A stretch of 64,000 nt of DNA from Tomocerus qinae (taxonomy: Eukaryota; Arthropoda; Collembola; Entomobryomorpha; Tomoceridae): assembly GCA_020055645.1 (NCBI GenBank), contig CM034548.1:51203411-51267410 (forward strand), written 5' to 3'. Positions 1 to 53,198 of the stretch are shown here, piece by piece (within the stretch, counting starts at the first letter, position 1; every line of letters begins with the position of its first letter). A program made the position numbers and the translations under genes. The notes under the pieces were generated by a model. It searched no databases and had not been told where the DNA came from. It saw only the letters and a list, made by a program, of their open reading frames with translations.

Positions 1-2189
1 TCGAATAGCTTTTCTAATTGGTCGAAAATAAAAGTTGGTCCTAAAACCGTAAAACCAACCTTCTAAATGTTTAGGGTGGTAAATACAACTTTTTTAGACC
101 GATAAAATATTTAATTCTTCAACTATATTGAAATGATTACAAGTATTCTAATAGCTTCTCTATTTGGTCGAAAACAAAAGTTGGTCCTAGACACCCAAAA
201 CCAACCTTCTAAATGTTTAGTTTGGTAAATACAATTTCTTAAAACAGATATGACATTTTATGCTTTAACCATATTGAAATGATTACAAGTATGCGAATAG
301 CTACTTTAAATGGTCGAAAATAAAAATTGGTCCTAGACCCGTAAAACCAACCTTCTAAATGTTTGAGGTGGTAAATACAATTTTTTAAGAAAGATATGAC
401 ATAACTATCTTCAACCATATTGAAATGATGACAAGTATTCGAATAGCCACTCTAATTGGTCGAAAATAAATGTTGTTCCTAGACGCGTAAAACCAATCTT
501 CTTAAAGTTTAGGGTGGTAAATACAATTTTTTAAGACAGATATGACATTTCATTCTTCAACTATATTGAAATGATTACAAGTATTCGAATAGCCACTCTA
601 ATTGGTCGAAAATAAATGTAGTTCCTAGACCCGTAAAACCAATCTTCTTAAAGTTTAGGGTGGTAAATACAATTTTTTAAGACAGATATGACATTTCTAT
701 CTTATACCATATTGAAATGATTACAAGAATTCGAATAGCTTCTCTATTTGGTCGAAAATAAAAGTTGGTCCTAGACCCGTAAAACCAAACTTCTAAATGT
801 TTGAGGTGGTAAATACAATTTTTTAAGAAAGATATGTTATTTCTATCTTCAACCATATTGAAATAATTACAAGTATTCGAATAGCTTTTCTAATTGGTCG
901 AAAATAAAAGTTGGTCCTAAAACCGTAAAACCAACCTTCTAAATGTTTAAGGTGGTAAATACAACTTTTTTAGACCGATAAAATATTTAATTCTTCAACT
1001 ATATTGAAATGATTACAAGTATTCTAATAGCTTCTCTAATTGGTCGAAAACAAAAGTTGGTCCTAGACACCCAAAACCAACCTTCTAAATGTTTAGTTTG
1101 GTAAATACAATTTCTTAAAACAGATATGACATTTTATGCTTTAACCATATTGAAATGATTACAAGTATGCGAATAGCTACTTTAAATGGTCGAAAATAAA
1201 AATTGGTCCTAGACCCGTAAAACCAACCTTCTAAATGTTTGAGGTGGTAAATACAATTTTTTAAGAAAGATATGACATAACTATCTTCAACCATATTGAA
1301 ATGATGACAAGTATTCGAATAGCCACTCTAATTGGTCGAAAATAAATGTTGTTCCTAGACGCGTAAAACCAATCTTCTTAAAGTTTAGGGTGGTAAATAC
1401 AATTTTTTAAGACAGATATGACATTTCATTCTTCAACTATATTGAAATGATTACAAGTATTCGAATAGCCACTCTAATTGGTCAAAAATAAATGTTGGTC
1501 CTAGACCCGTAAAACCAACCTTCTAAATGTTTGAGGTGGTAAATACAATTTTTTAAGAAAGATATGTTATTTCTATCTTCAACCATATTGAAATAATTAC
1601 AAGTATTCGAATAGCTTTTCTAATTGGTCGAAAATAAAAGTTGGTCCTAAAACCGTAAAACCAACCTTCTAAATGTTTAAGGTGGTAAATACAACTTTTT
1701 TAGACCGATAAAATATTTAATTCTTCAACTATATTGAAATGATTACAAGTATTCTAATAGCTTCTCTAATTGGTCGAAAACAAAAGTTGGTCCTAGACAC
1801 CCAAAACCAACCTTCTAAATGTTTAGTTTGGTAAATACAATTTCTTAAAACAGATATGACATTTTATGCTTTAACCATATTGAAATGATTACAAGTATGC
1901 GAATAGCTACTTTAAATGGTCGAAAATAAAAATTGGTCCTAGACCCGTAAAACCAACCTTCTAAATGTTTGAGGTGGTAAATACAATTTTTAAGAAAGAT
2001 ATGACATAACTATCTTCAACCATATTGAAATGATGACAAGTATTCGAATAGCCACTCTAATTGGTCGAAAATAAATGTTGTTCCTAGACGCGTAAAACCA
2101 ATCTTCTTAAAGTTTAGGGTGGTAAATACAATTTTTTAAGACAGATATGACATTTCATTCTTCAACTATATTGAAATGATTACAAGTAT

Positions 2190-2335
2190 TCGAATAGCCA
2201 CTCTAATTGGTCGAAAATAAATGTAGTTCCTAGACCCGTAAAACCAATCTTCTTAAAGTTTAGGGTGGTAAATACAATTTTTTAAGACAGATATGACATT
2301 TCTATCTTATACCATATTGAAATGATTACAAGAAT
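2190..2335. repeat. Monomer type F (representative)
   Basis: Type F looks like D on the left and centre (CCACTCTAATTGGTCG, CTTCTTAAAGTTTAGGG) but reads ATGTAGTTCC, CCCGTAAAACC and TCTATCTTATACCAT. It ends ACAAGAAT, which creates a GAATTC at its boundary with the next monomer, G. It is found only in the 6-mer part of the 11-mer. Confidence 0.88.
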
Positions 2336-2481
2336 TCGAATAGCTTCTCTATTTGGTCGAAAATAAAAGTTGGTCCTAGACCCGTAAAACCAAACTTCTA
2401 AATGTTTGAGGTGGTAAATACAATTTTTTAAGAAAGATATGTTATTTCTATCTTCAACCATATTGAAATGATGACAAGTAT
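2336..2481. repeat. Monomer type G (representative)
   Basis: Type G reads CTTCTCTATTTGGTCG and AAAACCAAACTTC, then GAGGTGG and GATATGTTATTTC, and ends GATGACAAG. It follows F and precedes H. The copy at 731 ends in the E-type AATAATTACAAG and is followed by A, so it is a G/E junction product. Confidence 0.87.
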
Positions 2482-2627
2482 TCGAATAGCTTCTCTAACT
2501 GGTCCAAAATAAAAGTTGGTTCTAGCCACCCAAAACCAACCTTCTAAGTGTTTGAGGTGGTAAATACAATTTTTTAAGAATGATATGTTATTTCTATCTT
2601 TAACCATATTGAAATGATTACAAGTAT
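2482..2627. repeat. Monomer type H (representative)
   Basis: Type H reads GGTCCAAAATAAAAG, GGTTCTAGCCACCC, TTCTAAGTGTTTGAGG and AAGAATGATATGTT. The copies at 2482 and 5083 share the private CTAACTGG, one of the marks of the first tandem duplication. Copies near 46777, 49696, 52761 and 56557 share CCAACGTTC and TGTTCTTTC, and mark the 3-kb super-repeat family. Confidence 0.87.
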
Positions 2628-2773
2628 TCTAATAGCTTCTCTAATTGGTCGAAAACCAAAGTTGGTCCTAGACCAGTAAAACCAATCTTCTAGATGTATA
2701 GGGTAGTAAATACAAGTTTTTAAGACAGATATGACATTTATATCTTTTAGAATATTGAAATGAATACAAGTAT
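2628..2773. repeat. Monomer type I (representative)
   Basis: Type I starts TCTAATAG like B and reads GAAAACCAAAG, GACCAGTAAAACC, TCTAGATGTATAGGG, CAAGTTTTTAAG and TATCTTTTAGAATAT. It ends GAATACAAG. It is among the most distinctive types, found almost only between H and J. Confidence 0.87.
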
Positions 2774-2919
2774 TCGAATAGCTTCTCTAATTGGTCAAAA
2801 ATAAAAGTTGGTCCTAGACCCGTTAAATCAACGTTCTAAATATTTGGGGTGGTAAATAAAATTTTTTAAGACAGATATGACATTTTATGCTTTAACAATA
2901 TTGAAATGATGACAAGTAT
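2774..2919. repeat. Monomer type J (representative)
   Basis: Type J reads GGTCAAAAATAAAAG, CCCGTTAAATCAAC, AAATATTTGGGGTGG and AAATAAAATTTTTT, then TGCTTTAACAATAT, and ends GATGACAAG. Its end resembles the end of C, and like C it leads into D. That shared end may explain why exchange between C-D and J-D junctions is so frequent. A variant at 14396 has CGAATTGC and ACGCGT. Confidence 0.87.
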
Positions 2920-3503
2920 TCGAATAGCCACTCTAATTGGTCGAAAATAAATGTTGTTCCTAGACGCGTAAAACCAATCTTCTTAAAGTTTAGGGTGGTA
3001 AATACAATTTTTTAAGACAGATATGACATTTCATTCTTCAACTATATTGAAATGATTACAAGTATTCGAATAGCCACTCTAATTGGTCAAAAATAAATGT
3101 TGGTCCTAGACCCGTAAAACCAACCTTCTAAATGTTTGAGGTGGTAAATACAATTTTTTAAGAAAGATATGTTATTTCTATCTTCAACCATATTGAAATA
3201 ATTACAAGTATTCGAATAGCTTTTCTAATTGGTCGAAAATAAAAGTTGGTCCTAAAACCGTAAAACCAACCTTCTAAATGTTTAGGGTGTTAAATACAAC
3301 TTTTTTAGACCGATAAAATATTTAATTCTTCAACTATATTGAAATGATTACAAGTATTCTAATAGCTTCTCTAATTGGTCGAAAACAAAAGTTGGTCCTA
3401 GACACCCAAAACCAACCTTCTAAATGTTTAGTTTGGTAAATACAATTTCTTAAAACAGATATGACATTTTATGCTTTAACCATATTGAAATGATTACAAG
3501 TAT

Positions 3504-3622
3504 GCGAATAGCTACTTTAAATGGTCGAAAATAAAAATTGGTCCTAGACCCGTAGTAAATACAATTTTTTAAGAAAGATATGACATAACTACCTTCAACC
3601 ATATTGAAATGATGACAAGTAT
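3504..3622. repeat. Type C monomer with 27-bp deletion (119 bp)
   Basis: The monomer reads CCCGTAGTAAATAC where C normally has CCCGTAAAACC, then 20 more bases, then GGTAAATAC. Bases 52-78 of the monomer are missing, including the right arm of the conserved dyad. No microhomology is visible at the joint. The identical lesion recurs at 6105-6223. Confidence 0.9.
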
Positions 3623-3768
3623 TCGAATAGCCACTCTAATTGGTCGAAAATAAATGTTGGTCCTAGACACCCAAAACCAACCTTCTAAATGTTTAGTTTG
3701 GTAAATACAATTTCTTAAAACAGATATGACATTTTATGCTTTAACCATATTGAAATGATTACAAGTAT
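3623..3768. repeat. D/B hybrid monomer
   Basis: The left 40 or so bases are type D, with AATAAATG. From GGTCCTAGACAC onward it is type B. It is followed by C, as a true B would be, so the array keeps its phase. It probably marks the joint of the 18-monomer duplication. Confidence 0.82.
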
Positions 3769-4206
3769 GCGAATAGCTACTTTAAATGGTCGAAAATAAA
3801 AATTGGTCCTAGACCCGTAAAACCAACCTTCTAAATGTTTGAGGTGGTAAATACAATTTTTTAAGAAAGATATGACATAACTATCTTCAACCATATTGAA
3901 ATGATGACAAGTATTCGAACAGCCACTCTAATTGGTCGAAAATAAATGTTGTTCCTAGACGCGTAAAACCAATCTTCTTAAAGTTTAGGGTGGTAAATAC
4001 AATTTTTTAAGACAGATATGACATTTCATTCTTCAACTATATTGAAATGATTACAAGTATTCGAATAGCCACTCTAATTGGTCAAAAATAAATGTTGGTC
4101 CTAGACCCGTAAAACCAACCTTCTAAATGTTTGAGGTGGTAAATACAATTTTTTAAGAAAGATATGTTATTTCTATCTTCAACCATATTGAAATAATTAC
4201 AAGTAT

Positions 4207-5812
4207 TCGAATAGCTTTTCTAATTGGTCGAAAATAAAAGTTGGTCCTAAAACCGTAAAACCAACCTTCTAAATGTTTAGGGTGGTAAATACAACTTTTT
4301 TAGACCGATAAAATATTTAATTCTTCAACTATATTGAAATGATTACAAGTATTCTAATAGCTTCTCTAATTGGTCGAAAACAAAAGTTGGTCCTAGACAC
4401 CCAAAACCAACCTTCTAAATGTTTAGTTTGGTAAATACAATTTCTTAAAACAGATATGACATTTTATGCTTTAACCATATTGAAATGATTACAAGTATGC
4501 GAATAGCTACTTTAAATGGTCGAAAATAAAAATTGGTCCTAGACCCGTAAAACCAACCTTCTAAATGTTTGAGGTGGTAAATACAATTTTTTAAGAAAGA
4601 TATGACATAACTATCTTCAACCATATTGAAATGATGACAAGTATTCGAATAGCCACTCTAATTGGTCGAAAATAAATGTTGTTCCTAGACGCGTAAAACC
4701 AATCTTCTTAAAGTTTAGGGTGGTAAATACAATTTTTTAAGACAGATATGACATTTCATTCTTCAACTATATTGAAATGATTACAAGTATTCGAATAGCC
4801 ACTCTAATTGGTCGAAAATAAATGTAGTTCCTAGACCCGTAAAACCAATCTTCTTAAAGTTTAGGGTGGTAAATACAATTTTTTAAGACAGATATGACAT
4901 TTCTATCTTATACCATATTGAAATGATTACAAGAATTCGAATAGCTTCTCTATTTGGTCGAAAATAAAAGTTGGTCCTAGACCCGTAAAACCAAACTTCT
5001 AAATGTTTGAGGTGGTAAATACAATTTTTTAAGAAAGATATGTTATTTCTATCTTCAACCATATTGAAATGATGACAAGTATTCGAATAGCTTCTCTAAC
5101 TGGTCCAAAATAAAAGTTGGTTCTAGCCACCCAAAACCAACCTTCTAAGTGTTTGAGGTGGTAAATACAATTTTTTAAGAATGATATGTTATTTCTATCT
5201 TTAACCATATTGAAATGATTACAAGTATTCTAATAGCTTCTCTAATTGGTCGAAAACCAAAGTTGGTCCTAGACCAGTAAAACCAATCTTCTAGATGTAT
5301 AGGGTAGTAAATACAAGTTTTTAAGACAGATATGACATTTATATCTTTTAGAATATTGAAATGAATACAAGTATTCGAATAGCTTCTCTAATTGGTCAAA
5401 AATAAAAGTTGGTCCTAGACCCGTTAAATCAACGTTCTAAATATTTGGGGTGGTAAATAAAATTTTTTAAGACAGATATGACATTTTATGCTTTAACAAT
5501 ATTGAAATGATGACAAGTATTCGAATAGCCACTCTAATTGGTCGAAAATAAATGTTGTTCCTAGACGCGTAAAACCAATCTTCTTAAAGTTTAGGGTGGT
5601 AAATACAATTTTTTAAGACAGATATGACATTTCATTCTTCAACTATATTGAAATGATTACAAGTATTCGAATAGCCACTCTAATTGGTCAAAAATAAATG
5701 TTGGTCCTAGACCCGTAAAACCAACCTTCTAAATGTTTGAGGTGGTAAATACAATTTTTTAAGAAAGATATGTTATTTCTATCTTCAACCATATTGAAAT
5801 AATTACAAGTAT
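4207..5812. repeat. Complete 11-mer HOR, copy 2
   Basis: The order is the same, from A at 4207 to E ending at 5812, exactly 11 x 146 = 1606 bp. It shares the private H change CTAACTGG with the 11-mer at 1607, so both descend from one local duplication. Confidence 0.88.
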
Positions 5813-6104
5813 TCGAATAGCTTTTCTAATTGGTCGAAAATAAAAGTTGGTCCTAAAACCGTAAAACCAACCTTCTAAATGTTTAGGGTGTTAAATACAA
5901 CTTTTTTAGACCGATAAAATATTTAATTCTTCAACTATATTGAAATGATTACAAGTATTCTAATAGCTTCTCTAATTGGTCGAAAACAAAAGTTGGTCCT
6001 AGACACCCAAAACCAACCTTCTAAATGTTTAGTTTGGTAAATACAATTTCTTAAAACAGATATGACATTTTATGCTTTAACCATATTGAAATGATTACAA
6101 GTAT

Positions 6105-6223
6105 GCGAATAGCTACTTTAAATGGTCGAAAATAAAAATTGGTCCTAGACCCGTAGTAAATACAATTTTTTAAGAAAGATATGACATAACTACCTTCAAC
6201 CATATTGAAATGATGACAAGTAT
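6105..6223. repeat. Type C monomer with the same 27-bp deletion
   Basis: The breakpoint and context match those of the copy at 3504, so it was copied in the segmental duplication, not made twice. Both copies also share TACCTTCAACC where most C monomers have TATCTTCAACC. Confidence 0.9.
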
Positions 6224-6368
6224 TCGAATAGCCACTCTAATTGGTCGAAAATAAATGTTGTTCCTAGACGCGTAAAACCAATCATCTTAAAGTTTAGGGT
6301 GGTAAAAACAATTTTTAAGACAGATATGACATTTCGTTCTTCACTTATATTGAAATGATTACAAGTAT

Positions 6369-7827
6369 TCGAATAGCCACTCTAATTGGTCAAAAATAAA
6401 TGTTGGTCCTAGACCCGTAAAACCAACCTTCTAAATGTTTGAGGTGGTAAATACAATTTTTTAAGAAAGATATGTTATTTCTATCTTCAACCATATTGAA
6501 ATAATTACAAGTATTCGAATAGCTTTTCTAATTGGTCGAAAATAAATGTTGGTCCTAGACCCGTAAAACCAACCTTCTAAATGTTTAAGGTGGTAAATAC
6601 AACTTTTTTAGACCGATAAAATATTTAATTCTTCAACTATATTGAAATGATTACAAGTATTCTAATAGCTTCTCTAATTGGTCGAAAACAAAAGTTGGTC
6701 CTAGACACCCAAAACCAACCTTCTAAATGTTTAGTTTGGTAAATACAATTTCTTAAAACAGATATGACATTTTATGCTTTAACCATATTGAAATGATTAC
6801 AAGTATGCGAATAGCTACTTTAAATGGTCGAAAATAAAAATTGGTCCTAGACCCGTAAAACCAACCTTCTAAATGTTTGAGGTGGTAAATACAATTTTTT
6901 AAGAAAGATATGACATAACTATCTTCAACCATATTGAAATGATGACAAGTATTCGAATAGCCACTCTAATTGGTCGAAAATAAATGTTGTTCCTAGACGC
7001 GTAAAACCAATCTTCTTAAAGTTTAGGGTGGTAAATACAATTTTTTAAGACAGATATGACATTTCATTCTTCAACTATATTGAAATGATTACAAGTATTC
7101 GAATAGCCACTCTAATTGGTCAAAAATAAATGTTGGTCCTAGACCCGTAAAACCAACCTTCTAAATGTTTGAGGTGGTAAATACAATTTTTTAAGAAAGA
7201 TATGTTATTTCTATCTTCAACCATATTGAAATAATTACAAGTATTCGAATAGCTTTTCTAATTGGTCGAAAATAAAAGTTGGTCCTAGACCCGTAAAACC
7301 AACCTTCTAAATGTTTAAGGTGGTAAATACAACTTTTTTAGACCGATAAAATATTTAATTCTTCAACTATATTGAAATGATTACAAGTATTCTAATAGCT
7401 TCTCTAATTGGTCGAAAACAAAAGTTGGTCCTAGACACCCAAAACCAACCTTCTAAATGTTTAGTTTGGTAAATACAATTTCTTAAAACAGATATGACAT
7501 TTTATGCTTTAACCATATTGAAATGATTACAAGTATGCGAATAGCTACTTTAAATGGTCGAAAATAAAAATTGGTCCTAGACCCGTAAAACCAACCTTCT
7601 AAATGTTTGAGGTGGTAAATACAATTTTTTAAGAAAGATATGACATAACTATCTTCAACCATATTGAAATGATGACAAGTATTCGAATAGCCACTCTAAT
7701 TGGTCGAAAATAAATGTTGTTCCTAGACGCGTAAAACCAATCTTCTTAAAGTTTAGGGTGGTAAATACAATTTTTAAGACAGATATGACATTTCATTCTT
7801 CAACTATATTGAAATGATTACAAGTAT
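6369..7827. repeat. 5-mer HOR array, two units
   Basis: The order is E 6369, A, B, C, D, then E 7099, A, B, C, D ending at 7827. Both A monomers are the mosaic sub-variant with CCTAGACCCG and TTTAAGGTGG. Confidence 0.85.
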
Positions 7828-7973
7828 TCGAATAGCCACTCTAATTGGTCAAAAATAAATGTTGGTCCTAGACCCGTAAAACCAACCTTTTAAATGTTTG
7901 AGGTGGTAAATACAATTTTTTAAGAAAGATATGTTATTTCTATCTTCAACCATATTGAAATAATTACAAGTAT

Positions 7974-8119
7974 TTGAATAGCTTTTCTAATTGGTCGAAA
8001 ATAAAAGTTGGTCCTAAAACCGTAAAACCAATCTTCTTAAAGTTTAGGGTGGTAAATACAATTTTTTAAGACAGATATGACATTTCATTCTTCAACTATA
8101 TTGAAATGATTACAAGTAT
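7974..8119. repeat. A/D hybrid monomer
   Basis: The left part is A (GCTTTTC, CCTAAAACCG). From AAAACCAATCTTCTTAAAG it is D to the end, and E follows. The step E-(A/D)-E skips B and C, so a 5-mer has been shortened to two monomers by exchange between A and D. It starts TTGAATAG, a CpG transition. The same hybrid lies at 17021. Confidence 0.88.
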
Positions 8120-11100
8120 TCGAATAGCCACTCTAATTGGTCAAAAATAAATGTTGGTCCTAGACCCGTAAAACCAACCTTCTAAATGTTTGAGGTGGTA
8201 AATACAATTTTTTAAGAAAGATATGTTATTTCTATCTTCAACCATATTGAAATAATTACAAGTATTCGAATAGCTTTTCTAATTGGTCGAAAATAAAAGT
8301 TGGTCCTAAAACCGTAAAACCAACCTTCTAAATGTTTAGGGTGGTAAATACAACTTTCTTAGACCGATAAAATATTTAATTCTTCAACTATATTGAAATG
8401 ATTACAAGTATTCTAATAGCTTCTCTAATTGGTCGAAAACAAAAGTTGGTCCTAGACACCCAAAACCAACCTTCTAAATGTTTAGTTTGGTAAATACAAT
8501 TTCTTAAAACAGATATGACATTTTATGCTTTAACCATATTGAAATGATTACAAGTATGCGAATAGCTACTTTAAATGGTCGAAAATAAAAATTGGTCCTA
8601 GACCCGTAAAACCAACCTTCTAAATGTTTGAGGTGGTAAATACAATTTTTTAAGAAAGATATGACATAACTATCTTCAACCATATTGAAATGATGACAAG
8701 TATTCGAATAGCCACTCTAATTGGTCGAAAATAAATGTTGTTCCTAGACGCGTAAAACCAATCTTCTTAAAGTTTAGGGTGGTAAATACAATTTTTTAAG
8801 ACAGATATGACATTTCATTCTTCAACTATATTGAAATGATTACAAGTATTCGAATAGCCACTCTAATTGGTCAAAAATAAATGTTGGTCCTAGACCCGTA
8901 AAACCAACCTTCTAAATGTTTGAGGTGGTAAATACAATTTTTTAAGAAAGATATGTTATTTCTATCTTCAACCATATTGAAATAATTACAAGTATTCGAA
9001 TAGCTTTTCTAATTGGTCGAAAATAAAAGTTGGTCCTAAAACCGTAAAACCAACCTTCTAAATGTTTAGGGTGGTAAATACAACTTTTTTAGACCGATAA
9101 AATATTTAATTCTTCAACTATATTGAAATGATTACAAGTATTCTAATAGCTTCTCTAATTGGTCGAAAACAAAAGTTGGTCCTAGACACCCAAAACCAGC
9201 CTTCTAAATGTTTAGTTTGGTAAATACAATTTCTTAAAACAGATATGACAGATTTTGCTTTAACCATATTGAAATGATTACAAGTATGCGTATAGCTACT
9301 TTAAATGGTCGAAAATAAAAATTGGTCCTAGACCCGTAAAACCAACCTTCTAAATGTTTGAGGTGGTAAATACAATTTTTTAAGAAAGATATGACATAAC
9401 TATCTTCAACCATATTGAAATGATGACAAGTATTCGAATAGCCACTCTAATTGGTCGAAAATAAATGTTGTTCCTAGACGCGTAAAACCAATCTTCTTAA
9501 AGTTTAGGGTGGTAAATACAATTTTTTAAGACAGATATGACATTTCATTCTTCAACTATATTGAAATGATTACAAGTATTCGAATAGCCACTCTAATTGG
9601 TCAAAAATAAATGTTGGTCCTAGACCCGTAAAACCAACCTTCTAAATGTTTGAGGTGGTAAATACAATTTTTTAAGAAAGATATGTTATTTCTATCTTCA
9701 ACCATATTGAAATAATTACAAGTATTCGAATAGCTTTTCTAATTGGTCGAAAATAAAAGTTGGTCCTAAAACCGTAAAACCAACCTTCTAAATGTTTAGG
9801 GTGGTAAATACAACTTTTTTAGACCGATAAAATATTTAATTCTTCAACCATATTGAAATGATTACAAGTATTCTAATAGCTTCTCTAATTGGTCGAAAAC
9901 AAAAGTTGGTCCTAGACAGCCAAAACCAACCTTCTAAATGTTTAGTTTGGTAAATACAATTTCTTAAAACAGATATGACATTTTATGCTTTAACCATATT
10001 GAAATGATTACAAGTATGCGAATAGCTACTTTAAATGGTCGAAAATAAAAATTGGTCCTAGACCCGTAAAACCAACCTTCTAAATGTTTGAGGTGGTAAA
10101 TACAATTTTTAAGAAAGATATGACATAACTATCTTCAACCATATTGAAATGATGACAAGTATTCGAATAGCCACTCTAATTGGTCGAAAATAAATGTTGT
10201 TCCTAGACGCGTAAAACCAATCTTCTTAAAGTTTAGGGTGGTAAATACAATTTTTTAAGACAGATATGACATTTCATTCTTCAACTATATTGAAATGATT
10301 ACAAGTATTCGAATAGCCACTCTAATTGGTCAAAAATAAATGTTGGTCCTAGACCCGTAAAACCAACCTTCTAAATGTTTGAGGTGGTAAATACAATTTT
10401 TTAAGAAAGATATGTTATTTCTATCTTCAACCATATTGAAATAATTACAAGTATTCGAATAGCTTTTCTAATTGGTCGAAAATAAAAGTTGGTCCTAAGA
10501 CCGTAAAACCAACCTTCTAAATGTTTAGGGTGGTAAATACAACTTTTTTAGACCGATAAAATATTTAATTCTTCAACTATATTGAAATGATTACAAGTAT
10601 TCTAATAGCTTCTCTAATTGGTCGAAAACAAAAGTTGGTCCTAGACACCCAAAACCAACCTTCTAAATGTTTAGTTTGGTAAATACAATTTCTTAAAACA
10701 GATATGACATTTTATGCTTTAACCATATTGAAATGATTACAAGTATGCGAATAGCTACTTTAAATGGTCGAAAATAAAAATTGGTCCTAGACCCGTAAAA
10801 CCAACCTTCTAAATGTTTGAGGTGGTAAATACAATTTTTTAAGAAAGATATGACATAACTATCTTCAACCATATTGAAATGATGACAAGTATTCGAATAG
10901 CCACTCTAATTGGTCGAAAATAAATGTTGTTCCTAGACGCGTAAAACCAATCTTCTTAAAGTTTAGTGTGGTAAATACAATTTTTTAAGACAGATATGAC
11001 ATTTCATTCTTCAACTATATTGAAATGATTACAAGTATTCGAATAGCCACTCTAATTGGTCAAAAATAAATGTTGGTCCTAGACCCGTAAAACCAACCTT

Positions 11101-11768
11101 CTAAATGTTTGAGGTGGTAAATACAATTTTTTAAGAAAGATATGTTATTTCTATCTTCAACCATATTGAAATAATTACAAGTATTCGAATAGCTTTTCTA
11201 ATTGGTCGAAAATAAAAGTTGGTCCTAGACCCGTAAAACCAACCTTCTAAATGTTTAAGGTGGTAAATACAACTTTTTTAGACCGATAAAATATTTAATT
11301 CTTCAACTATATTGAAATGATTACAAGTATTCTAATAGCTTCTCTAATTGGTCGAAAACAAAAGTTGGTCCTAGACACCCAAAACCAACCTTCTAAATGT
11401 TTAGTTTGGTAAATACAATTTCTTAAAACAGATATGACATTTTATGCTTTAACCATATTGAAATGATTACAAGTATGCGAATAGCTACTTTAAATGGTCG
11501 AAAATAAAAATTGGTCCTAGACCCGTAAAACCAACCTTCTAAATGTTTGAGGTGGTAAATACAATTTTTTAAGAAAGATATGACATAACTATCTTCAACC
11601 ATATTGAAATGATGACAAGTATTCGAATAGCCACTCTAATTGGTCGAAAATAAATGTTGTTCCTAGACGCGTAAAACCAATCTTCTTAAAGTTTAGGGTG
11701 GTAAATACAATTTTTTAAGACAGATATGACATTTCATTCTTCAACTATATTGAAATGATTACAAGTAT
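8120..11768. repeat. 5-mer HOR array, five units
   Basis: Units start with E at 8120, 8850, 9580, 10309 and 11039 and end with D at 11768, spaced 730 bp apart except for one 1-bp T-tract loss. This is one of the two cleanest stretches of the 5-mer state. Confidence 0.9.
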
Positions 11769-14541: not shown

Positions 14542-15415
14542 TCGAATAGCCACTCTAATTGGTCGAAAATAAATGTTGTTCCTAGACGCGTAAAACCAAT
14601 CTTCTTAAAGTTTAGGGTGGTAAATACAATTTTTTAAGACAGATATGACATTTCATTCTTCAACTATATTGAAATGATTACAAGTATTCGAATAGCCACT
14701 CTAATTGGTCAAAAATAAATGTTGGTCCTAGACCCGTAAAACCAACCTTCTAAATGTTTGAGGTGGTAAATACAATTTTTTAAGAAAGATATGTTATTTC
14801 TATCTTCAACCATATTGAAATAATTACAAGTATTCGAATAGCTTTTCTAATTGGTCGAAAATAAAAGTTGGTCCTAAAACCGTAAAACCAACCTTCTAAA
14901 TGTTTAGGGTGGTAAATACAACTTTTTTGACCGATAAAATATTTAATTCTTCAACTATATTGAAATGATTACAAGTATTCTAATAGCTTCTCTAATTGGT
15001 CGAAAACAAAAGTTGGTCCTAGACACCCAAAACCAACCTTCTAAATGTTTAGTTTGGTAAATACAATTTCTTAAAACAGATATGACATTTTATGCTTTAA
15101 CCATATTGAAATGATTACAAGTATGCGAATAGCTACTTTAAATGGTCGAAAATAAAAATTGGTCCTAGACCCGTAAAACCAACCTTCTAAATGTTTGAGG
15201 TGGTAAATACAATTTTTTAAGAAAGATATGACATAACTATCTTCAACCATATTGAAATGATGACAAGTATTCGAATAGCCACTCTAATTGGTCGAAAATA
15301 AATGTTGTTCCTAGACGCGTAAAACCAATCTTCTTAAAGTTTAGGGTGGTAAATACAATTTTTAAGACAGATATGACATTTCATTCTTCAACTATATTGA
15401 AATGATTACAAGTAT

Positions 15416-16874
15416 TCGAATAGCCACTCTAATTGGTCAAAAATAAATGTTGGTCCTAGACCCGTAAAACCAACCTTCTAAATGTTTGAGGTGGTAAATA
15501 CAATTTTTTAAGAAAGATATGTTATTTCTATCTTCAACCATATTGAAATAATTACAAGTATTCGAATAGCTTTTCTAATTGGTCGAAAATAAATGTTGGT
15601 CCTAGACCCGTAAAACCAACCTTCTAAATGTTTAAGGTGGTAAATACAACTTTTTTAGACCGATAAAATATTTAATTCTTCAACTATATTGAAATGATTA
15701 CAAGTATTCTAATAGCTTCTCTAATTGGTCGAAAACAAAAGTTGGTCCTAGACACCCAAAACCAACCTTCTAAATGTTTAGTTTGGTAAATACAATTTCT
15801 TAAAACAGATATGACATTTTATGCTTTAACCATATTGAAATGATTACAAGTATGCGAATAGCTACTTTAAATGGTCGAAAATAAAAATTGGTCCTAGACC
15901 CGTAAAACCAACCTTCTAAATGTTTGAGGTGGTAAATACAATTTTTTAAGAAAGATATGACATAACTATCTTCAACCATATTGAAATGATGACAAGTATT
16001 CGAATAGCCACTCTAATTGGTCGAAAATAAATGTTGTTCCTAGACGCGTAAAACCAATCTTCTTAAAGTTTAGGGTGGTAAATACAATTTTTAAGACAGA
16101 TATGACATTTCATTCTTCAACTATATTGAAATGATTACAAGTATTCGAATAGCCACTCTAATTGGTCAAAAATAAATGTTGGTCCTAGACCCGTAAAACC
16201 AACCTTCTAAATGTTTGAGGTGGTAAATACAATTTTTTAAGAAAGATATGTTATTTCTATCTTCAACCATATTGAAATAATTACAAGTATTCGAATAGCT
16301 TTTCTAATTGGTCGAAAATAAAAGTTGGTCCTAGACCCGTAAAACCAACCTTCTAAATGTTTAAGGTGGTAAATACAACTTTTTTAGACCGATAAAATAT
16401 TTAATTCTTCAACTATATTGAAATGATTACAAGTATTCTAATAGCTTCTCTAATTGGTCGAAAACAAAAGTTGGTCCTAGACACCCAAAACCAACCTTCT
16501 AAATGTTTAGTTTGGTAAATACAATTTCTTAAAACAGATATGACATTTTATGCTTTAACCATATTGAAATGATTACAAGTATGCGAATAGCTACTTTAAA
16601 TGGTCGAAAATAAAAATTGGTCCTAGACCCGTAAAACCAACCTTCTAAATGTTTGAGGTGGTAAATACAATTTTTTAAGAAAGATATGACATAACTATCT
16701 TCAACCATATTGAAATGATGACAAGTATTCGAATAGCCACTCTAATTGGTCGAAAATAAATGTTGTTCCTAGACGCGTAAAACCAATCTTCTTAAAGTTT
16801 AGGGTGGTAAATACAATTTTTTAAGACAGATATGACATTTCATTCTTCAACTATATTGAAATGATTACAAGTAT
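15416..16874. repeat. 5-mer HOR array, two units (right copy)
   Basis: E at 15416 and E at 16145 each lead an E-A-B-C-D unit. The order and sub-variants equal those of 6369-7827. The D at 16000 has a T5 tract. Confidence 0.85.
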
Positions 16875-17020
16875 TCGAATAGCCACTCTAATTGGTCAAA
16901 AATAAATGTTGGTCCTAGACCCGTAAAACCAACCTTTTAAATGTTTGAGGTGGTAAATACAATTTTTTAAGAAAGATATGTTATTTCTATCTTCAACCAT
17001 ATTGAAATAATTACAAGTAT

Positions 17021-17166
17021 TCGAATAGCTTTTCTAATTGGTCGAAAATAAAAGTTGGTCCTAAAACCGTAAAACCAATCTTCTTAAAGTTTAGGGTGGT
17101 AAATACAATTTTTTAAGACAGATATGACATTTCATTCTTCAACTATATTGAAATGATTACAAGTAT
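17021..17166. repeat. A/D hybrid monomer (copy of 7974)
   Basis: It has the same switch point as 7974 (CCTAAAACCG followed by AAAACCAATCTTCTTAAAG) and the same preceding E with CCTTTTAAATG. Here the start is TCGAATAG, not TTGAATAG. Confidence 0.88.
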
Positions 17167-20100
17167 TCGAATAGCCACTCTAATTGGTCAAAAATAAATG
17201 TTGGTCCTAGACCCGTAAAACCAACCTTCTAAATGTTTGAGGTGGTAAATACAATTTTTTAAGAAAGATATGTTATTTCTATCTTCAACCATATTGAAAT
17301 AATTACAAGTATTCGAATAGCTTTTCTAATTGGTCGAAAATAAAAGTTGGTCCTAAAACCGTAAAACCAACCTTCTAAATGTTTAGGGTGGTAAATACAA
17401 CTTTTTTAGACCGATAAAATATTTAATTCTTCAACTATATTGAAATGATTACAAGTATTCTAATAGCTTCTCTAATTGGTCGAAAACAAAAGTTGGTCCT
17501 AGACACCCAAAACCAACCTTCTAAATGTTTAGTTTGGTAAATACAATTTCTTAAAACAGATATGACATTTTATGCTTTAACCATATTGAAATGATTACAA
17601 GTATGCGAATAGCTACTTTAAATGGTCGAAAATAAAAATTGGTCCTAGACCCGTAAAACCAACCTTCTAAATGTTTGAGGTGGTAAATACAATTTTTAAG
17701 AAAGATATGACATAACTATCTTCAACCATATTGAAATGATGACAAGTATTCGAATAGCCACTCTAATTGGTCGAAAATAAATGTTGTTCCTAGACGCGTA
17801 AAACCAATCTTCTTAAAGTTTAGGGTGGTAAATACAATTTTTTAAGACAGATATGACATTTCATTCTTCAACTATATTGAAATGATTACAAGTATTCGAA
17901 TAGCCACTCTAATTGGTCAAAAATAAATGTTGGTCCTAGACCCGTAAAACCAACCTTCTAAATGTTTGAGGTGGTAAATACAATTTTTTAAGAAAGATAT
18001 GTTATTTCTATCTTCAACCATATTGAAATAATTACAAGTATTCGAATAGCTTTTCTAATTGGTCGAAAATAAAAGTTGGTCCTAAAACCGTAAAACCAAC
18101 CTTCTAAATGTTTAGGGTGGTAAATACAACTTTTTTAGACCGATAAAATATTTAATTCTTCAACTATATTGAAATGATTACAAGTATTCTAATAGCTTCT
18201 CTAATTGGTCGAAAACAAAAGTTGGTCCTAGACACCCAAAACCAACCTTCTAAATGTTTAGTTTGGTAAATACAATTTCTTAAAACAGATATGACATTTT
18301 ATGCTTTAACCATATTGAAATGATTACAAGTATGCGAATAGCTACTTTAAATGGTCGAAAATAAAAATTGGTCCTAGACCCGTAAAACCAACCTTCTAAA
18401 TGTTTGAGGTGGTAAATACAATTTTTTAAGAAAGATATGACATAACTATCTTCAACCATATTGAAATGATGACAAGTATTCGAATAGCCACTCTAATTGG
18501 TCGAAAATAAATGTTGTTCCTAGACGCGTAAAACCAATCTTCTTAAAGTTTAGGGTGGTAAATACAATTTTTTAAGACAGATATGACATTTCATTCTTCA
18601 ACTATATTGAAATGATTACAAGTATTCGAATAGCCACTCTAATTGGTCAAAAATAAATGTTGGTCCTAGACCCGTAAAACCAACCTTCTAAATGTTTGAG
18701 GTGGTAAATACAATTTTTTAAGAAAGATATGTTATTTCTATCTTCAACCATATTGAAATAATTACAAGTATTCGAATAGCTTTTCTAATTGGTCGAAAAT
18801 AAAAGTTGGTCCTAAAACCGTAAAACCAACCTTCTAAATGTTTAGGGTGGTAAATACAACTTTTTTAGACCGATAAAATATTTAATTCTTCAACTATATT
18901 GAAATGATTACAAGTATTCTAATAGCTTCTCTAATTGGTCGAAAACAAAAGTTGGTCCTAGACAGCCAAAACCAACCTTCTAAATGTTTAGTTTGGTAAA
19001 TACAATTTCTTAAAACAGATATGACATTTTATGCTTTAACCATATTGAAATGATTACAAGTATGCGAATAGCTACTTTAAATGGTCGAAAATAAAAATTG
19101 GTCCTAGACCCGTAAAACCAACCTTCTAAATGTTTGAGGTGGTAAATACAATTTTTTAAGAAAGATATGACATAACTATCTTCAACCATATTGAAATGAT
19201 GACAAGTATTCGAATAGCCACTCTAATTGGTCGAAAATAAATGTTGTTCCTAGACGCGTAAAACCAATCTTCTTAAAGTTTAGGGTGGTAAATACAATTT
19301 TTTAAGACAGATATGACATTTCATTCTTCAACTATATTGAAATGATTACAAGTATTCGAATAGCCACTCTAATTGGTCAAAAATAAATGTTGGTCCTAGA
19401 CCCGTAAAACCAACCTTCTAAATGTTTGAGGTGGTAAATACAATTTTTTAAGAAAGATATGTTATTTCTATCTTCAACCATATTGAAATAATTACAAGTA
19501 TTCGAATAGCTTTTCTAATTGGTCGAAAATAAAAGTTGGTCCTAAAACCGTAAAACCAACCTTCTAAATGTTTAGGGTGGTAAATACAACTTTTAGACCG
19601 ATAAAATATTTAATTCTTCAACTATATTGAAATGATTACAAGTATTCTAATAGCTTCTCTAATTGGTCGAAAACAAAAGTTGGTCCTAGACACCCAAAAC
19701 CAACCTTCTAAATGTTTAGTTTGGTAAATACAATTTCTTAAAACAGATATGACATTTTATGCTTTAACCATATTGAAATGATTACAAGTATGCGAATAGC
19801 TACTTTAAATGGTCGAAAATAAAAATTGGTCCTAGACCCGTAAAACCAACCTTCTAAATGTTTGAGGTGGTAAATACAATTTTTTAAGAAAGATATGACA
19901 TAACTATCTTCAACCATATTGAAATGATGACAAGTATTCGAATAGCCACTCTAATTGGTCGAAAATAAATGTTGTTCCTAGACGCGTAAAACCAATCTTC
20001 TTAAAGTTTAGGTGTGGTAAATACAATTTTTTAAGACAGATATGACATTTCATTCTTCAACTATATTGAAATGATTACAAGTATTCGAATAGCCACTCTA

Positions 20101-21543
20101 ATTGGTCAAAAATAAATGTTGGTCCTAGACCCGTAAAACCAACCTTCTAAATGTTTGAGGTGGTAAATACAATTTTTTAAGAAAGATATGTTATTTCTAT
20201 CTTCAACCATATTGAAATAATTACAAGTATTCGAATAGCTTTTCTAATTGGTCGAAAATAAAAGTTGGTCCTAAAACCGTAAAACCAACCTTCTAAATGT
20301 TTAGGTGGTAAATACAACTTTTTTAGACCGATAAAATATTTAATTCTTCAACTATATTGAAATGATTACAAGTATTCTAATAGCTTCTCTAATTGGTCGA
20401 AAACAAAAGTTGGTCCTAGACACCCAAAACCAACCTTCTAAATGTTTAGTTTGGTAAATACAATTTCTTAAAACAGATATGACATTTTATGCTTTAACCA
20501 TATTGAAATGATTACAAGTATGCGAATAGCTACTTTAAATGGTCGAAAATAAAAATTGGTCCTAGACCCGTAAAACCAACCTTCTAAATGTTTGAGGTGG
20601 TAAATACAATTTTTTAAGAAAGATATGACATAACTATCTTCAACCATATTGAAATGATGACAAGTATTCGAATAGCCACTCTAATTGGTCGAAAATAAAT
20701 GTTGTTCCTAGACGCGTAAAACCAATCTTCTTAAAGTTTAGGGTGGTAAATACAATTTTTTAAGACAGATATGACATTTCATTCTTCAACTATATTGAAA
20801 TGATTACAAGTATTCGAATAGCCACTCTAATTGGTCAAAAATAAATGTTGGTCCTAGACCCGTAAAACCAACCTTCTAAATGTTTGAGGTGGTAAATACA
20901 ATTTTTTAAGAAAGATATGTTATTTCTATCTTCAACCATATTGAAATAATTACAAGTATTCGAATAGCTTTTCTAATTGGTCGAAAATAAAAGTTGGTCC
21001 TAAAACCGTAAAACCAACCTTCTAAATGTTTAGGGTGGTAAATACAACTTTTTTAGACCGATAAAATATTTAATTCTTCAACTATATTGAAATGATTACA
21101 AGTATTCTAATAGCTTCTCTAATTGGTCGAAAACAAAAGTTGGTCCTAGACACCCAAAACCAACCTTCTAAATGTTTAGTTTGGTAAATACAATTTCTTA
21201 AAACAGATATGACATTTTATGCTTTAACCATATTGAAATGATTACAAGTATGCGAATAGCTACTTTAAATGGTCGAAAATAAAAATTGGTCCTAGACCCG
21301 TAAAACCAACCTTCTAAATGTTTGAGGTGGTAAATACAATTTTTTAAGAAAGATATGACATAACTATCTTCAACCATATTGAAATGATGACAAGTATTCG
21401 AATAGCCACTCTAATTGGTCGAAAATAAATGTTGTTCCTAGACGCGTAAAACCAATCTTCTTAAAGTTTAGGGTGGTAAATACAATTTTTTAAGACAGAT
21501 ATGACATTTCATTCTTCAACTATATTGAAATGATTACAAGTAT
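17167..21543. repeat. 5-mer HOR array, six units
   Basis: Units start with E at 17167, 17896, 18626, 19356, 20085 and 20814, and the last D ends at 21543. It is the longest run of the 5-mer state in the window. Length changes are confined to the T tract and the GGGTGG block. Confidence 0.9.
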
Positions 21544-21689: not shown

Positions 21690-23438
21690 TCGAATAGCTT
21701 TTCTAATTGGTCGAAAATAAAAGTTGGTCCTAAAACCGTAAAACCAACCTTCTAAATGTTTAGGGTGGTAAATACAACTTTTTTAGACCGATAAAATATT
21801 TAATTCTTCAACTATATTGAAATGATTACAAGTATTCTAATAGCTTCTCTAATTGGTCGAAAATAAAAATTGGTCCTAGACCCGTAAAACCAACCTTCTA
21901 AATGTTTGAGGTGGTAAATACAATTTCTTAAAACAGATATGACATTTTATGCTTTAACCATATTGAAATGATTACAAGTATTCGAATAGCTACTCTATTT
22001 GGTCGAAAATAAAAGTTGGTCCTAGACCCGTAAAACCAACCTTCTAAATGTTTGAGGTGGTAAATACAATTTTTTAAGACAGATATGACATTTCTATCTT
22101 CAACCATATTGAAATGATTACAAGTATTCGAATAGCTTCTCTAATTGGTCGAAAATAAAAGTTGGTCCTAGACCCGTAAAACCAACCTTCTAAATGTTTG
22201 AGGTGGTAAATACAATTTTTTAAGAAAGATATGACATAACTATCTTCAACCATATTGAAATGATGACAAGTATTCGAATAGCCACTCTAATTGGTCGAAA
22301 ATAAATGTTGTTCCTAGACGCGTAAAACCAATCTTCTTAAAGTTTAGGGTGGTAAATACAATTTTTTAAGACAGATATGACATTTCATTCTTCAACTATA
22401 TTGAAATGATTACAAGTATTCGAATAGCCACTCTAATTGGTCGAAAATAAATGTTGTTCCTAGACCCGTAAAACCAATCTTCTTAAAGTTTAGGGTGGTA
22501 AATACAATTTTTTAAGACAGATATGACATTTCTATCTTATACCATATTGAAATGATTACAAGAATTCGAATAGCTTCTCTATTTGGTCGAAAATAAAAGT
22601 TGGTCCTAGACCCGTAAAACCAAACTTCTAAATGTTTGAGGTGGTAAATACAATTTTTTAAGAAAGATATGTTATTTCTATCTTCAACCATATTGAAATG
22701 ATTAAAGGTATTTGAATAGCTTCTGTAATTGGTCAAAAAAAAGTTGGTTCTAGACCCGTAAAACCAACTTTCTAAATGTTTGGGATGGTAAATACAATTT
22801 TTTAAGACAGATATGACATTTCTATCTTCAACCATATTGAAATGATTACAGGTATTCGAATAGCTTCTCTAATTGGTCCAAAATAAAAGTTGGTCCTAAA
22901 ACCGTAAAACCAACCTTCTAAATGTTTAGGGTGGTAAATACATTTTTTTAAGACAGATATGACATTTAAGTCTTCAACCATATTGAAATGATTACAAGTA
23001 TTCGAATAGCTTCTCTAATTGGTCGAAAATAAAAGTTGGTCCTAGACCCGTAAAACCAACCTTCTAAATGTTTGAGGTGGTAAATACAATTTTTAAGACA
23101 GATATGACATTTTATGCTTTAACCATATTGAAATGATTACAAGTATTCGAATAGCCACTCTAATTGGTCGAAAATAAATGTTGGTCCTAGACCCGTAAAA
23201 CCAACCTTCTAAATGTTTGAGGTGGTAAATACAATTTTTTAAGACAGATATGACATTTCTATCTTCAACCATATTGAAATGATTACAAGTATTCCAATAG
23301 CCACTCTAATTGGTCGAAAATAAATGTTGGTCCTAGACCCGTAAAACCAACCTTCTAAATGTTTGAGGTGGTAAATACAATTTTTTAAGAAAGATATGTT
23401 ATTTCTATCTTCAACCATATTGAAATAATTACAAGTAT
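21690..23438. repeat. Irregular monomer island 1
   Basis: HOR order breaks down. An A at 21690 is followed by a B/C/B mosaic (21836), chimeric monomers at 21982 and 22128, D, a D/F mosaic (22420), G, a short divergent monomer of 144 bp (22712), then blends with ACATTTTTTTAAG and ATTTAAGTCTTC. No two neighbours repeat in order. A 107-codon minus-strand open frame at 22512-22835 lies here by chance. Confidence 0.8.
22712..22855. repeat. Divergent short monomer K (144 bp)
   Basis: This monomer reads TTGAATAGCTTCTGTAATTG, GGTCAAAAAAAAGTTGG, CTTTCTAAATG and TTTGGGATGG. Relatives lie at 31176-31318 (143 bp), 40510-40653 (144 bp) and 44591-44732 (142 bp), all in irregular islands. The shortening lies in the A-rich run after GGTC. 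Confidence 0.82.
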
Positions 23439-24021
23439 TCGAATAGCTTTTCTAATTGGTCGAAAATAAAAGTTGGTCCTAAAACCGTAAAACCAACCTT
23501 CTAAATGTTTAGGGTGGTAAATACAACTTTTTTAGACCGATAAAATATTTAATTCTTCAACTATATTGAAATGATTACAAGTATTCTAATAGCTTCTCTA
23601 ATTGGTCGAAAACAAAAGTTGGTCCTAGACACCCAAAACCAACCTTCTAAATGTTTAGTTTGGTAAATACAATTTCTTAAAACAGATATGACATTTTATG
23701 CTTTAACCATATTGAAATGATTACAAGTATGCGAATAGCTACTTTAAATGGTCGAAAATAAAAATTGGTCCTAGACCCGTAAAACCAACCTTCTAAATGT
23801 TTGAGGTGGTAAATACAATTTTTTAAGAAAGATATGACATAACTATCTTCAACCATATTGAAATGATGACAAGTATTCGAATAGCCACTCTAATTGGTCG
23901 AAAATAAATGTTGTTCCTAGACCCGTAAAACCAATCTTCTTAAAGTTTAGGGTGGTAAATACAATTTTTAAGACAGGTATGACATTTCATTCTTCAACCA
24001 TATTGAAATGATTACAAGTAT

Positions 24022-26211
24022 TCGAATAGCCACTCTAATTGGTCGAAAATAAATGTTGGTCCTAGACCCGTAAAACCAACCTTCTAAATGTTTGAGGTGG
24101 TAAATACAATTTTTTAAGAAAGATATGACATTTCTATCTTCAACCATATTGAAATAATTACAAGTATTCGAATAGCTTTTCTAATTGGTCGAAAATAAAA
24201 GTTGGTCCTAGACCCGTAAAACCAACCTTCTAAATGTTTAAGGTGGTAAATACAACTTTTTTAGACCGATAAAATATTTAATTCTTCAACTATATTGAAA
24301 TGATTACAAGTATTCTAATAGCTTCTCTAATTGGTCGAAAACAAAAGTTGGTCCTAGACACCCAAAACCAACCTTCTAAATGTTTAGTTTGGTAAATACA
24401 ATTTCTTAAAACAGATATGACATTTTATGCTTTAACCATATTGAAATGATTACAAGTATTCGAATAGCTACTTTAAATGGTCGAAAATAAAAATTGGTCC
24501 TAGACCCGTAAAACCAACCTTCTAAATGTTTGAGGTGGTAAATACAATTTTTTAAGAAAGATATGACATAACTATCTTCAACCATATTGAAATGATGACA
24601 AGTATTCGAATAGCCACTCTAATTGGTCGAAAATAAATGTTGTTCCTAGACGCGTAAAACCAATCTTCTTAAAGTTTAGGGTGGTAAATACAATTTTTTA
24701 AGACAGATATGACATTTCATTCTTCAACTATATTGAAATGATTACAAGTATTCGAATAGCCACTCTAATTGGTCAAAAATAAATGTTGGTCCTAGACCCG
24801 TAAAACCAACCTTCTAAATGTTTGAGGTGGTAAATACAATTTTTTAAGAAAGATATGTTATTTCTATCTTCAACCATATTGAAATAATTACAAGTATTCG
24901 AATAGCTTTTCTAATTGGTCGAAAATAAAAGTTGGTCCTATAACCGTAAAACCAACCTTCTAAATGTTTAGGGTGGTAAATACAACTTTTTTAGACCGAT
25001 AAAATATTTAATTCTTCAACTATATTGAAATGATTACAAGTATTCTAATAGCTTCTCTAATTGGTCGAAAACAAAAGTTGGTCCTAGACACCCAAAACCA
25101 ACCTTCTAAATGTTTAGTTTGGTAAATACAATTTCTTAAAACAGATATGACATTTTATGCTTTAACCATATTGAAATGATTACAAGTATGCGAATAGCTA
25201 CTTTAAATGGTCGAAAATAAAAATTGGTCCTAGACCCGTAAAACCAACCTTCTAAATGTTTGAGGTGGTAAATACAATTTTTTAAGAAAGATATGACATA
25301 ACTATCTTCAACCATATTGAAATGATGACAAGTATTCGAATAGCCACTCTAATTGGTCGAAAATAAATGTTGTTCCTAGACGCGTAAAACCAATCTTCTT
25401 AAAGTTTAGGGTGGTAAATACAATTTTTTAAGACAGATATGACATTTCATTCTTCAACTATATTGAAATGATTACAAGTATTCGAATAGCCACTCTAATT
25501 GGTCAAAAATAAATGTTGGTCCTAGACCCGTAAAACCAACCTTCTAAATGTTTGAGGTGGTAAATACAATTTTTTAAGAAAGATATGTTATTTCTATCTT
25601 CAACCATATTGAAATAATTACAAGTATTCGAATAGCTTTTCTAATTGGTCGAAAATAAAAGTTGGTCCTAGACCCGTAAAACCAACCTTCTAAATGTTTA
25701 GGGTGGTAAATACAACTTTTTTAGACCGATAAAATATTTAATTCTTCAACTATATTGAAATGATTACAAGTATTCTAATAGCTTCTCTAATTGGTCGAAA
25801 ACAAAAGTTGGTCCTAGACCCGTAAAACCAACCTTCTAAATGTTTAGTTTGGTAAATACAATTTCTTAAAACAGATATGACATTTTATGCTTTAACCATA
25901 TTGAAATGATTACAAGTATGCGAATAGCTACTTTAAATGGTCGAAAATAAAAATTGGTCCTAGACCCGTAAAACCAACCTTCTAAATGTTTGAGGTGGTA
26001 AATACAATTTTTTAAAAAAGATATGTTATTTTTATCTTCAACCATATTGAAATGATGACAAGTATTCGAATAGCCACTCTAATTGGTCGAAAATAAATGT
26101 TGTTCCTAGACGCGTAAAACCAATCTTCTTAAAGTTTAGGGTGGTAAATACAATTTTTTAAGACAGATATGACATTTCATTCTTCAACTATATTGAAATG
26201 ATTACAAGTAT
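24022..26211. repeat. 5-mer HOR array, three units
   Basis: E 24022, E 24752 and E 25482 each lead E-A-B-C-D, exactly 15 x 146 bp in all. A partial unit A-B-C-D (from 23439) precedes it. Private changes include CCTATAACCG in the A at 24898 and a C starting TCGAATAG at 24460. Confidence 0.85.
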
Positions 26212-47214: not shown

Positions 47215-48382
47215 TCGAATAGCCACTCTAATTGGTCGAAAATAAATGTTGTTCCTAGACGCGTAAAACCAATCTTCTTAAAGTTTAGGGTGGTAAATAC
47301 AATTTTTTAAGACAGATATGACATTTCATTCTTCAACTATATTGAAATGATTACAAGTATTCGAATAGCCACTCTAATTGGTCAAAAATAAATGTTGGTC
47401 CTAGACCCGTAAAACCAACCTTCTAAATGTTTGAGGTGGTAAATACAATTTTTTAAGAAAGATATGTTATTTCTATCTTCAACCATATTGAAATAATTAC
47501 AAGTATTCGAATAGCTTTTCTAATTGGTCGAAAATAAAAGTTGGTCCTAAAACCGTAAAACCAACCTTCTAAATGTTTAGGGTGGTAAATACAACTTTTT
47601 TAGACCGATAAAATATTTAATTCTTCAACTATATTGAAATGATTACAAGTATTCTAATAGCTTCTCTAATTGGTCGAAAACAAAAGTTGGTCCTAGACAC
47701 CCAAAACCAACCTTCTAAATGTTTAGTTTGGTAAATACAATTTCTTAAAACAGATATGACATTTTATGCTTTAACCATATTGAAATGATTACAAGTATGC
47801 GAATAGCTACTTTAAATGGTCGAAAATAAAAATTGGTCCTAGACCCGTAAAACCAACCTTCTAAATGTTTGAGGTGGTAAATACAATTTTTTAAGAAAGA
47901 TATGACATAACTATCTTCAACCATATTGAAATGATGACAAGTATTCGAATAGCCACTCTAATTGGTCGAAAATAAATGTTGTTCCTAGACGCGTAAAACC
48001 AATCTTCTTAAAGTTTAGGGTGGTAAATACAATTTTTTAAGACAGATATGACATTTCATTCTTCAACTATATTGAAATGATTACAAGTATTCGAATAGCC
48101 ACTCTAATTGGTCGAAAATAAATGTAGTTCCTAGACCCGTAAAACCAATCTTCTTAAAGTTTAGTGTGGTAAATACAATTTTTTAAGACAGATATGACAT
48201 TTCTACCTTATACCATATTGAAATGATTACAAGAATTCGAATAGCTTCTCTATTTGGTCGAAAATAAAAGTTGGTCCTAGACCCGTAAAACCAAACTTCT
48301 AAATGTTTGAGGTGGTAAATACAATTTTTTAAGAAAGATATGTTATTTCTATCTTCAACCATATTGAAATGATGACAAGTAT

Positions 48383-48528
48383 TCGAATAGCTTCTCTAAT
48401 TGGTCGAAAACCAAAGTTGGTCCTAGACCAGTAAAACCAATCTTCTAGAGGTATAGGGTAGTAAATACAAGTTTTTAAGACAGATATGACATTTATATCT
48501 TTTAGAATATTGAAATGAATACAAGTAT
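48383..48528. repeat. H/I hybrid monomer
   Basis: It starts TCGAATAG as H and turns to I by GAAAACCAAAG and GACCAGT; CTAGAGGTATAGG is private. The same hybrid recurs at 51302 and 58167, so one fusion event has been spread by later duplication. Confidence 0.85.
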
Positions 48529-48820
48529 TCGAATAGCTTCTCTAATTGGTCAAAAATAAAAGTTGGTCCTAGACCCGTTAAATCAACTTTCTAAATATTT
48601 GGGGTGGTAAATAAAATTTTTTAAGACAGATATGACATTTTATGCTTTAACAATATTGAAATGATGACAAGTATTCGAATAGCCACTCTAATTGGTCGAA
48701 AATAAATGTTGTTCCTAGACGCGTAAAACCAATCTTCTTAAAGTTTAGGGTGGTAAATACAATTTTTTAAGACAGATATGACATTTCATTCTTCAACTAT
48801 ATTGAAATGATTACAAGTAT

Positions 48821-48966
48821 TCGAATAGCCACTCTAATTGGTCAAAAATAAATGTTGGTCCTAGACCCGTAAAACCAACCTTCTAAATGTTTGAGGTGGT
48901 AAATACAATTTTTTTAGACCGATAAAATATTTAATTCTTCAACTATATTGAAATGATTACAAGTAT
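48821..48966. repeat. E/A hybrid monomer
   Basis: E (GGTCAAAAATAAATG, TTTGAGGTGG) continues to AAATACAA and changes to A at TTTTTTTAGACCGAT. One monomer length is missing compared with the matching place in the neighbouring super-repeat (51740-52031). This is the signature of an in-register unequal exchange or deletion between adjacent monomers. Confidence 0.88.
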
Positions 48967-53100: not shown

Positions 53101-53198
53101 GTTAAATCAACTTTCTAAATATTTGGGGTGGTAAATAAAATTTTTTAAGACAGATATGACATTTTATGCTTTAACAATATTGAAATGATGACAAGTAT
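50134..53198. repeat. 3-kb super-repeat, copy 2 (21 monomers)
   Basis: It starts 2919 bp after copy 1 and is one monomer longer, because E and A are separate here while copy 1 has a single E/A hybrid. Offsets of shared marks are 2919 bp before that point and 3065 bp after it, a difference of exactly one monomer. Confidence 0.85.

Follow-up and report, generated by a model that had tools for sequence, protein, structure and literature searches.

A repeated monomer as a possible switch point between 5-mer and 11-mer units in a 146-bp satellite array

Alpha satellite is built from monomers of about 171 bp, and a centromeric satellite is one to which the centromeric histone binds. A higher-order repeat (HOR) is termed cascading when a monomer type is present more than once in its canonical unit, and the passages that treat one human alpha-satellite example describe a 20-mer with 19 types, one of which is repeated at distances of 5 and 15. 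The polymorphism of D17Z1, on human chromosome 17, reportedly has earlier references in Waye and Willard, 1986. D17Z1 comprises 16-mer and 13-mer units, and the 13-mer, which is now common in the population, is ascribed in the relevant excerpt most likely to deletion via unequal exchange (PMC3966626). Human alpha-satellite HORs are described, in the sections on unit variants, as differing from the primary unit by insertions and deletions of whole monomers, with hybrid monomers that usually keep their length (PMC9549924, PMC8336445). For human chromosome 1, homogenized domains are attributed, in the part of the account drawn on here, to accumulated unequal crossovers (PMC2853522).

The window (the whole 64-kb stretch of DNA analyzed here) is a single head-to-tail array with a period of 146, as seen with Tandem Repeats Finder and by autocorrelation. 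Monomer borders were set by wraparound alignment against a 146-base consensus, and 439 monomers were cut out, 402 of which are exactly 146 bp long. Average-linkage clustering, cut at 5 differences, gave ten main types (a–j, each with 10 to 67 members) and, besides these, minor and hybrid clusters; the type consensi are separated by 7–28 columns out of 150. The letters A, B, C, D, E, F, G, H, I, and J of the original prediction, which we retain, correspond one to one to clusters c, d, e, a, b, f, g, j, i, and h, and our monomer phase starts 3 bp before the one used there. Near-identical multimonomer units built from distinct, more divergent monomers place the array among HOR satellites, and the presence of D twice per canonical 11-mer, with the same consensus by context, places it among cascading HORs.

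Assignment to alpha satellite by monomer length was rejected, as the monomer here is 146 bp and the peaks found close to multiples of 171 correspond to multiples of 146. The CENP-B box has the core TTCGNNNNANNCGGG, and some alpha satellite lacks the box. Exact matches to this core are absent from the window; at up to two mismatches there are 249, against 60.65 expected, and among the 200 matches listed most lie at one recurring minus-strand site. The minus-strand sequence TTCGACCAATTAGAG, two mismatches off the core, is present in 194 exact copies for 439 monomers. A 30-base monomer piece had no matches in viral or genome contig collections, neither of them eukaryotic, and a 1456-bp piece of the array had none in a plasmid collection, also not eukaryotic. 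Seven satellite pieces of 21–23 bases were absent from paper texts, and no candidate was recognized among 146-bp satellites in the literature, as judged from search listings.

The monomer-type string recovers both kinds of unit within the one array, as the original prediction held: 19 clean 5-mers (A-B-C-D-E followed by A) and three clean 11-mers (A-B-C-D-F-G-H-I-J-D-E, by cluster label; Table 1). The 5-mer string with its following A (cdeabc) arose at most once in any of 2000 shuffles of monomer order. The 11-mer had been read as the 5-mer (E-A-B-C-D) plus D-F-G-H-I-J, and the consensi agree with this reading: removal of six monomers from the consensus of the three 11-mers leaves the consensus of the 19 5-mers with 0 differences in 730 bp, whether the removed block is taken as F-G-H-I-J-D or as D-F-G-H-I-J. 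Runs of five and six E-A-B-C-D 5-mers, placed at 8120–11768 and 17167–21543, are present from 8117 and 17164 in our phase. Two further claims stood in part. The interval 1607–5812, to which the two states were assigned, contains two 11-mers but no free-standing 5-mer, its middle being a 7-monomer variant; and the region 44879–60792, called 11-mer-rich, carries the extra block but consists mostly of variant units and has a single canonical 11-mer.

Exact copies of the type consensi placed end to end number two for the 5-mer (18039, 29421) and none for the 11-mer in the window. Decoding at switch penalties of 3, 4, 6, and 8 returned the 5-mer plus A 19, 19, 19, and 23 times and the 11-mer 2, 2, 4, and 4 times; at penalty 4, a one-column switch at the start of the first monomer keeps the 11-mer at 58602 from being scored as pure. 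The mean pairwise difference is 0.0110 (1.1%) among the 19 5-mers, a value inflated because one unit carries a 27-bp deletion (0.0063, or 0.6%, without it), and 0.0029 (0.3%) among the three 11-mers. An exact 1673-bp repeat at an offset of 2601 (1987–3659 and 4588–6260), both copies of which hold the same C shortened to 119 bp (3501–3619 and 6102–6220), is a recent segmental duplication within the array.

Table 1. Coordinates of units, shared tracts, and domains in the window
Feature	Position	Strand	Basis
11-mer A-B-C-D-F-G-H-I-J-D-E	1604..3208	+	cluster labels, decoding
7-monomer variant unit with a D/B hybrid and a C lacking 27 bp	3209..4203	+	
Second 11-mer, part of the exact 1673-bp repeat	4204..5809	+	
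Three 5-mer units A-B-C-D-E, the first with a 119-bp C	5810..7970	+	
Five 5-mers, frame E-A-B-C-D	8117..11765	+	
Three 5-mer units	14831..17017	+	
Six 5-mers, frame E-A-B-C-D	17164..21540	+	
Three 5-mer units	23436..25624	+	
921-bp D-E-A-B-C-D string, 5-mer context	17728..18648	+	
191-bp D tract, context C-D-F	2022..2212	+	
191-bp D tract, context J-D-E	2898..3088	+	
Sole J-D-F junction found; its J end is part of a G/J hybrid monomer	44857..45047	+	
Domain with extra F–J block, mostly variant units	44879..60792	+	
Sole canonical 11-mer found in the second domain	58602..60207	+	

D was predicted to be the same in both of its positions, with the same sequence before it. Mosaic decoding yields 77 pure D monomers, 58 of which carry the exact consensus, across five of seven contexts. 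The exact form dominates in C-D-F (18 of 21), C-D-E (24 of 35), and J-D-E (14 of 16); 57 of the 58 exact copies are preceded by C or J and followed by an E- or F-type monomer, and GATGACAAG lies directly before 56 of them. Most D copies are identical; E-flanked and F-flanked copies were compared by exact-copy counts per context, in which two D clades, the outcome that had been named as evidence against exchange, were not seen. Permutation tests, which are rough as the copies are not independent, gave P = 0.056 for D before F versus before E, 0.30 for C-D-F versus J-D-E, 0.40 for J-D-E versus C-D-E, and, with few variants, 0.042 for C-D-F versus C-D-E; the C-D-E group in this comparison and these tests still includes cases flanked by F/E hybrids.

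The identity extends beyond the monomer. In the consensus 11-mer, identity between the two D positions runs for 191 bp (the last 19 of C or J, all 146 of D, and the first 26 of E or F), and the next longest tract shared between different positions is 79 bp. The 54 exact copies of the 191-bp tract lie between C and E (22), C and F (17), J and E (13), J and F (1), and C and D (1), with two of the C–E copies (49236, 52301) preceding an F/E hybrid and belonging with C-D-F. Model-free counts that required exact flanks of 40 and 48 bases gave 15 C-D-F, 16 C-D-E, 13 J-D-E, and one J-D-F junction. Seven unchanged copies of a 921-bp D-E-A-B-C-D string plus flanks are found in the window, two between C and E in 5-mers (17728, 20646), four with J on the left and F on the right (36986, 45733, 47193, 50112), and one between C and F (38446). 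Eleven of the 42 decoded E-A-B-C blocks are identical to the consensus, and these occur in both settings.

We think that homologous exchange between D positions probably turned an 11-mer into the 5-mer, which was then amplified and homogenized. An exchange in monomer register between the two D positions would drop the six intervening monomers, and, in support of the original prediction, exchange anywhere within the shared 191-bp tract would yield exactly the 5-mer. The event at D could be a crossover, single-strand annealing, or conversion, with crossover and annealing equally compatible. The 5-mer might then have multiplied as a unit and been homogenized into its own domain. Loss appears likelier than gain. 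The F–J consensi show 7–20 differences from the nearest other type, and because F–J are not readily derivable from the 5-mer, an 11-mer (or a 6-mer) would have had to be present already. A three-site haplotype of A is present in six E-A-B-C-D 5-mers in four runs (6366, 7096, 11036, 15413, 16142, and 24019) and, in full, in none of the other decoded E-A-B-C blocks, partial forms having two sites (25479 and 32046) or the third (1458). This restriction suggests that 5-mers were copied as 5-mers.

The two unit states are spread unevenly along the window. By the model-free counts, in which copies are not independent, the positions of C-D-E and J-D-E junctions differ (Mann-Whitney P = 0.007), and junction context is associated with the side of the window (Fisher P = 0.008); with F/E hybrids left in C-D-E, the values are 0.011 and 0.020, respectively, and P = 0.038 for 12 runs. 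Decoded units starting in 44879–60792 have 10, 20, 10, 11, 17, 9, 20, and 7 monomers, none having five, and the extra block there is mostly altered by F/G fusion, H/I fusion, or an F/E hybrid. The 5-mer half retains pieces of the extra block at 12203–14830. Both the retained pieces and the lack of five-monomer units starting in the second domain make loss the likelier direction; the greater variation of the 5-mers than of the three 11-mers does not favor it. Exact repeats in the second domain measure 1933 bp at an offset of 2919 and 1340 bp at an offset of 3065, about 20 and 21 monomers. At a second level, 46982–53400 is periodic at about 20 and 21 monomers and could represent a super-unit made of altered 10-mers and 11-mers. 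Residual divergence, in 4-kb bins, is highest at 28–36 and 40–44 kb and lowest at 12–20, 48–52, and 56–60 kb.

Because D is repeated, either a 5-mer or a 6-mer can result from one exchange. An exchange at D that removed D-E-A-B-C would leave the 6-mer and a J-D-F junction. With the same 191-bp tract available, the 6-mer should form as easily as the 5-mer, and its rarity counts against the exchange model: the window holds no clean 6-mer or array of 6-mers (J-D-F in the decoded strings, 0 at all four penalties), and its one J-D-F junction, at 44857, adjoins a hybrid monomer. Founding events may be very few because 5-mers are copied, and the asymmetry alone therefore weighs little. That one product was favored, for example because E-A-B-C was kept by a binding protein or preferentially amplified, seems to us quite unlikely. 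The model predicts a third state, the 6-mer, which might be present on other chromosomes or in other haplotypes or relatives.

Exchange and conversion look general in the array, judging from the decoded monomers. Mosaic decoding with ten types places 96 switches within 81 monomers, in 74 distinct classes, and the switch total falls from 117 to 45 as the penalty rises from 3 to 8. Of these 81 hybrids, 71 are exactly 146 bp long, and such in-register hybrids count for the exchange model. Closer type pairs show more distinct junctions (Spearman −0.29, P = 0.006). The identical tract at hybrid breakpoints averages 13.2 columns, versus 16.9 for uniform placement; this lack of preference for long identical tracts counts against the model, and we rejected as a general rule the idea that identity length drives all exchange. 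Units read as having E in place of F (b then g) were also rejected, as fourteen diagnostic columns identify F/E hybrids with F at the first three and E at the other eleven. Three identical monomers (49401, 52466, and 56262) have an F 5′ part and an E 3′ part, each followed by G, and look like a conversion-like tract that was copied afterwards. The B consensus has exclusive alleles in common with I near the 5′ end, with H in mid-monomer, and with J near the 3′ end; H, I, and J follow directly on one another in the extra block. Monomers B, H, I, and J themselves look mosaic.

The direction of change could be reversed: the 5-mer would be older, and D-F-G-H-I-J would have been inserted to give the 11-mer when D underwent exchange with some other unit of at least six monomers, either within the array or in another part of the genome. 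We regard this order of events as unlikely. It would accord with the greater variation of the 5-mers and with the one J-D-F junction. F and G are also close to D and E, respectively (7 and 9 differences), so that an older pentamer is conceivable; together with three alleles common to D and F that occur in no other type, this hints at an old duplication of the D-E step. It would require an outside source for F–J, however, and the window offers neither a 6-mer array nor a decoded 5-mer starting in the second domain.

D identity could stem from later conversion instead of being a precondition for exchange. The fuller proposal, that gene conversion equalized the D positions after unit formation and that the two unit lengths are of separate origin, has precedent in the array, where conversion-like tracts exist, the three identical F/E monomers are still followed by G, and some single monomers contain double switches. 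It is nevertheless very unlikely, as the whole 921-bp D-E-A-B-C-D block, and not D alone, would have to stay unchanged between the states. Exact repeats of up to 1933 bp are difficult to assemble, and part of the alternation might stem from incorrect assembly of an array that is really longer or more regular, but differences between the states are scattered over many sites, with flanks that differ and variants that are private, and several runs contain 5-mer units, which makes this explanation highly improbable. Loss of six monomers by exchange at D remains our preferred reading.

Overall, the array is in structure a cascading HOR with deletion variants, and each of its elements is already known in human alpha satellite; the monomer here is 146 bp. 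Like the 20-mer, in which one of 19 types is repeated, the 11-mer has 10 types with D repeated, at distances of 6 and 5. Unlike that 171-bp-based unit, the array holds a short 5-mer as an abundant state of its own, and the passages on the 20-mer do not mention a 5-mer unit that remained after the monomers between the repeated ones were lost. Whole-monomer insertions and deletions and length-keeping hybrids are found here as in the alpha-satellite HOR variants described in the sections cited (PMC9549924, PMC8336445), but in a different satellite and with variant units that outnumber the three canonical 11-mers. As in the excerpted account of D17Z1, the shorter unit most likely arose by deletion in an unequal exchange, with three monomers fewer there and six here. 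The difference between 5 and 11 parts, one six-part block beside a repeated monomer, fits best as the expected trace of ordinary homologous exchange, and the array may offer, outside alpha satellite, a readable record of a repeated monomer in a higher-order unit acting as the point where one unit length switches to another.
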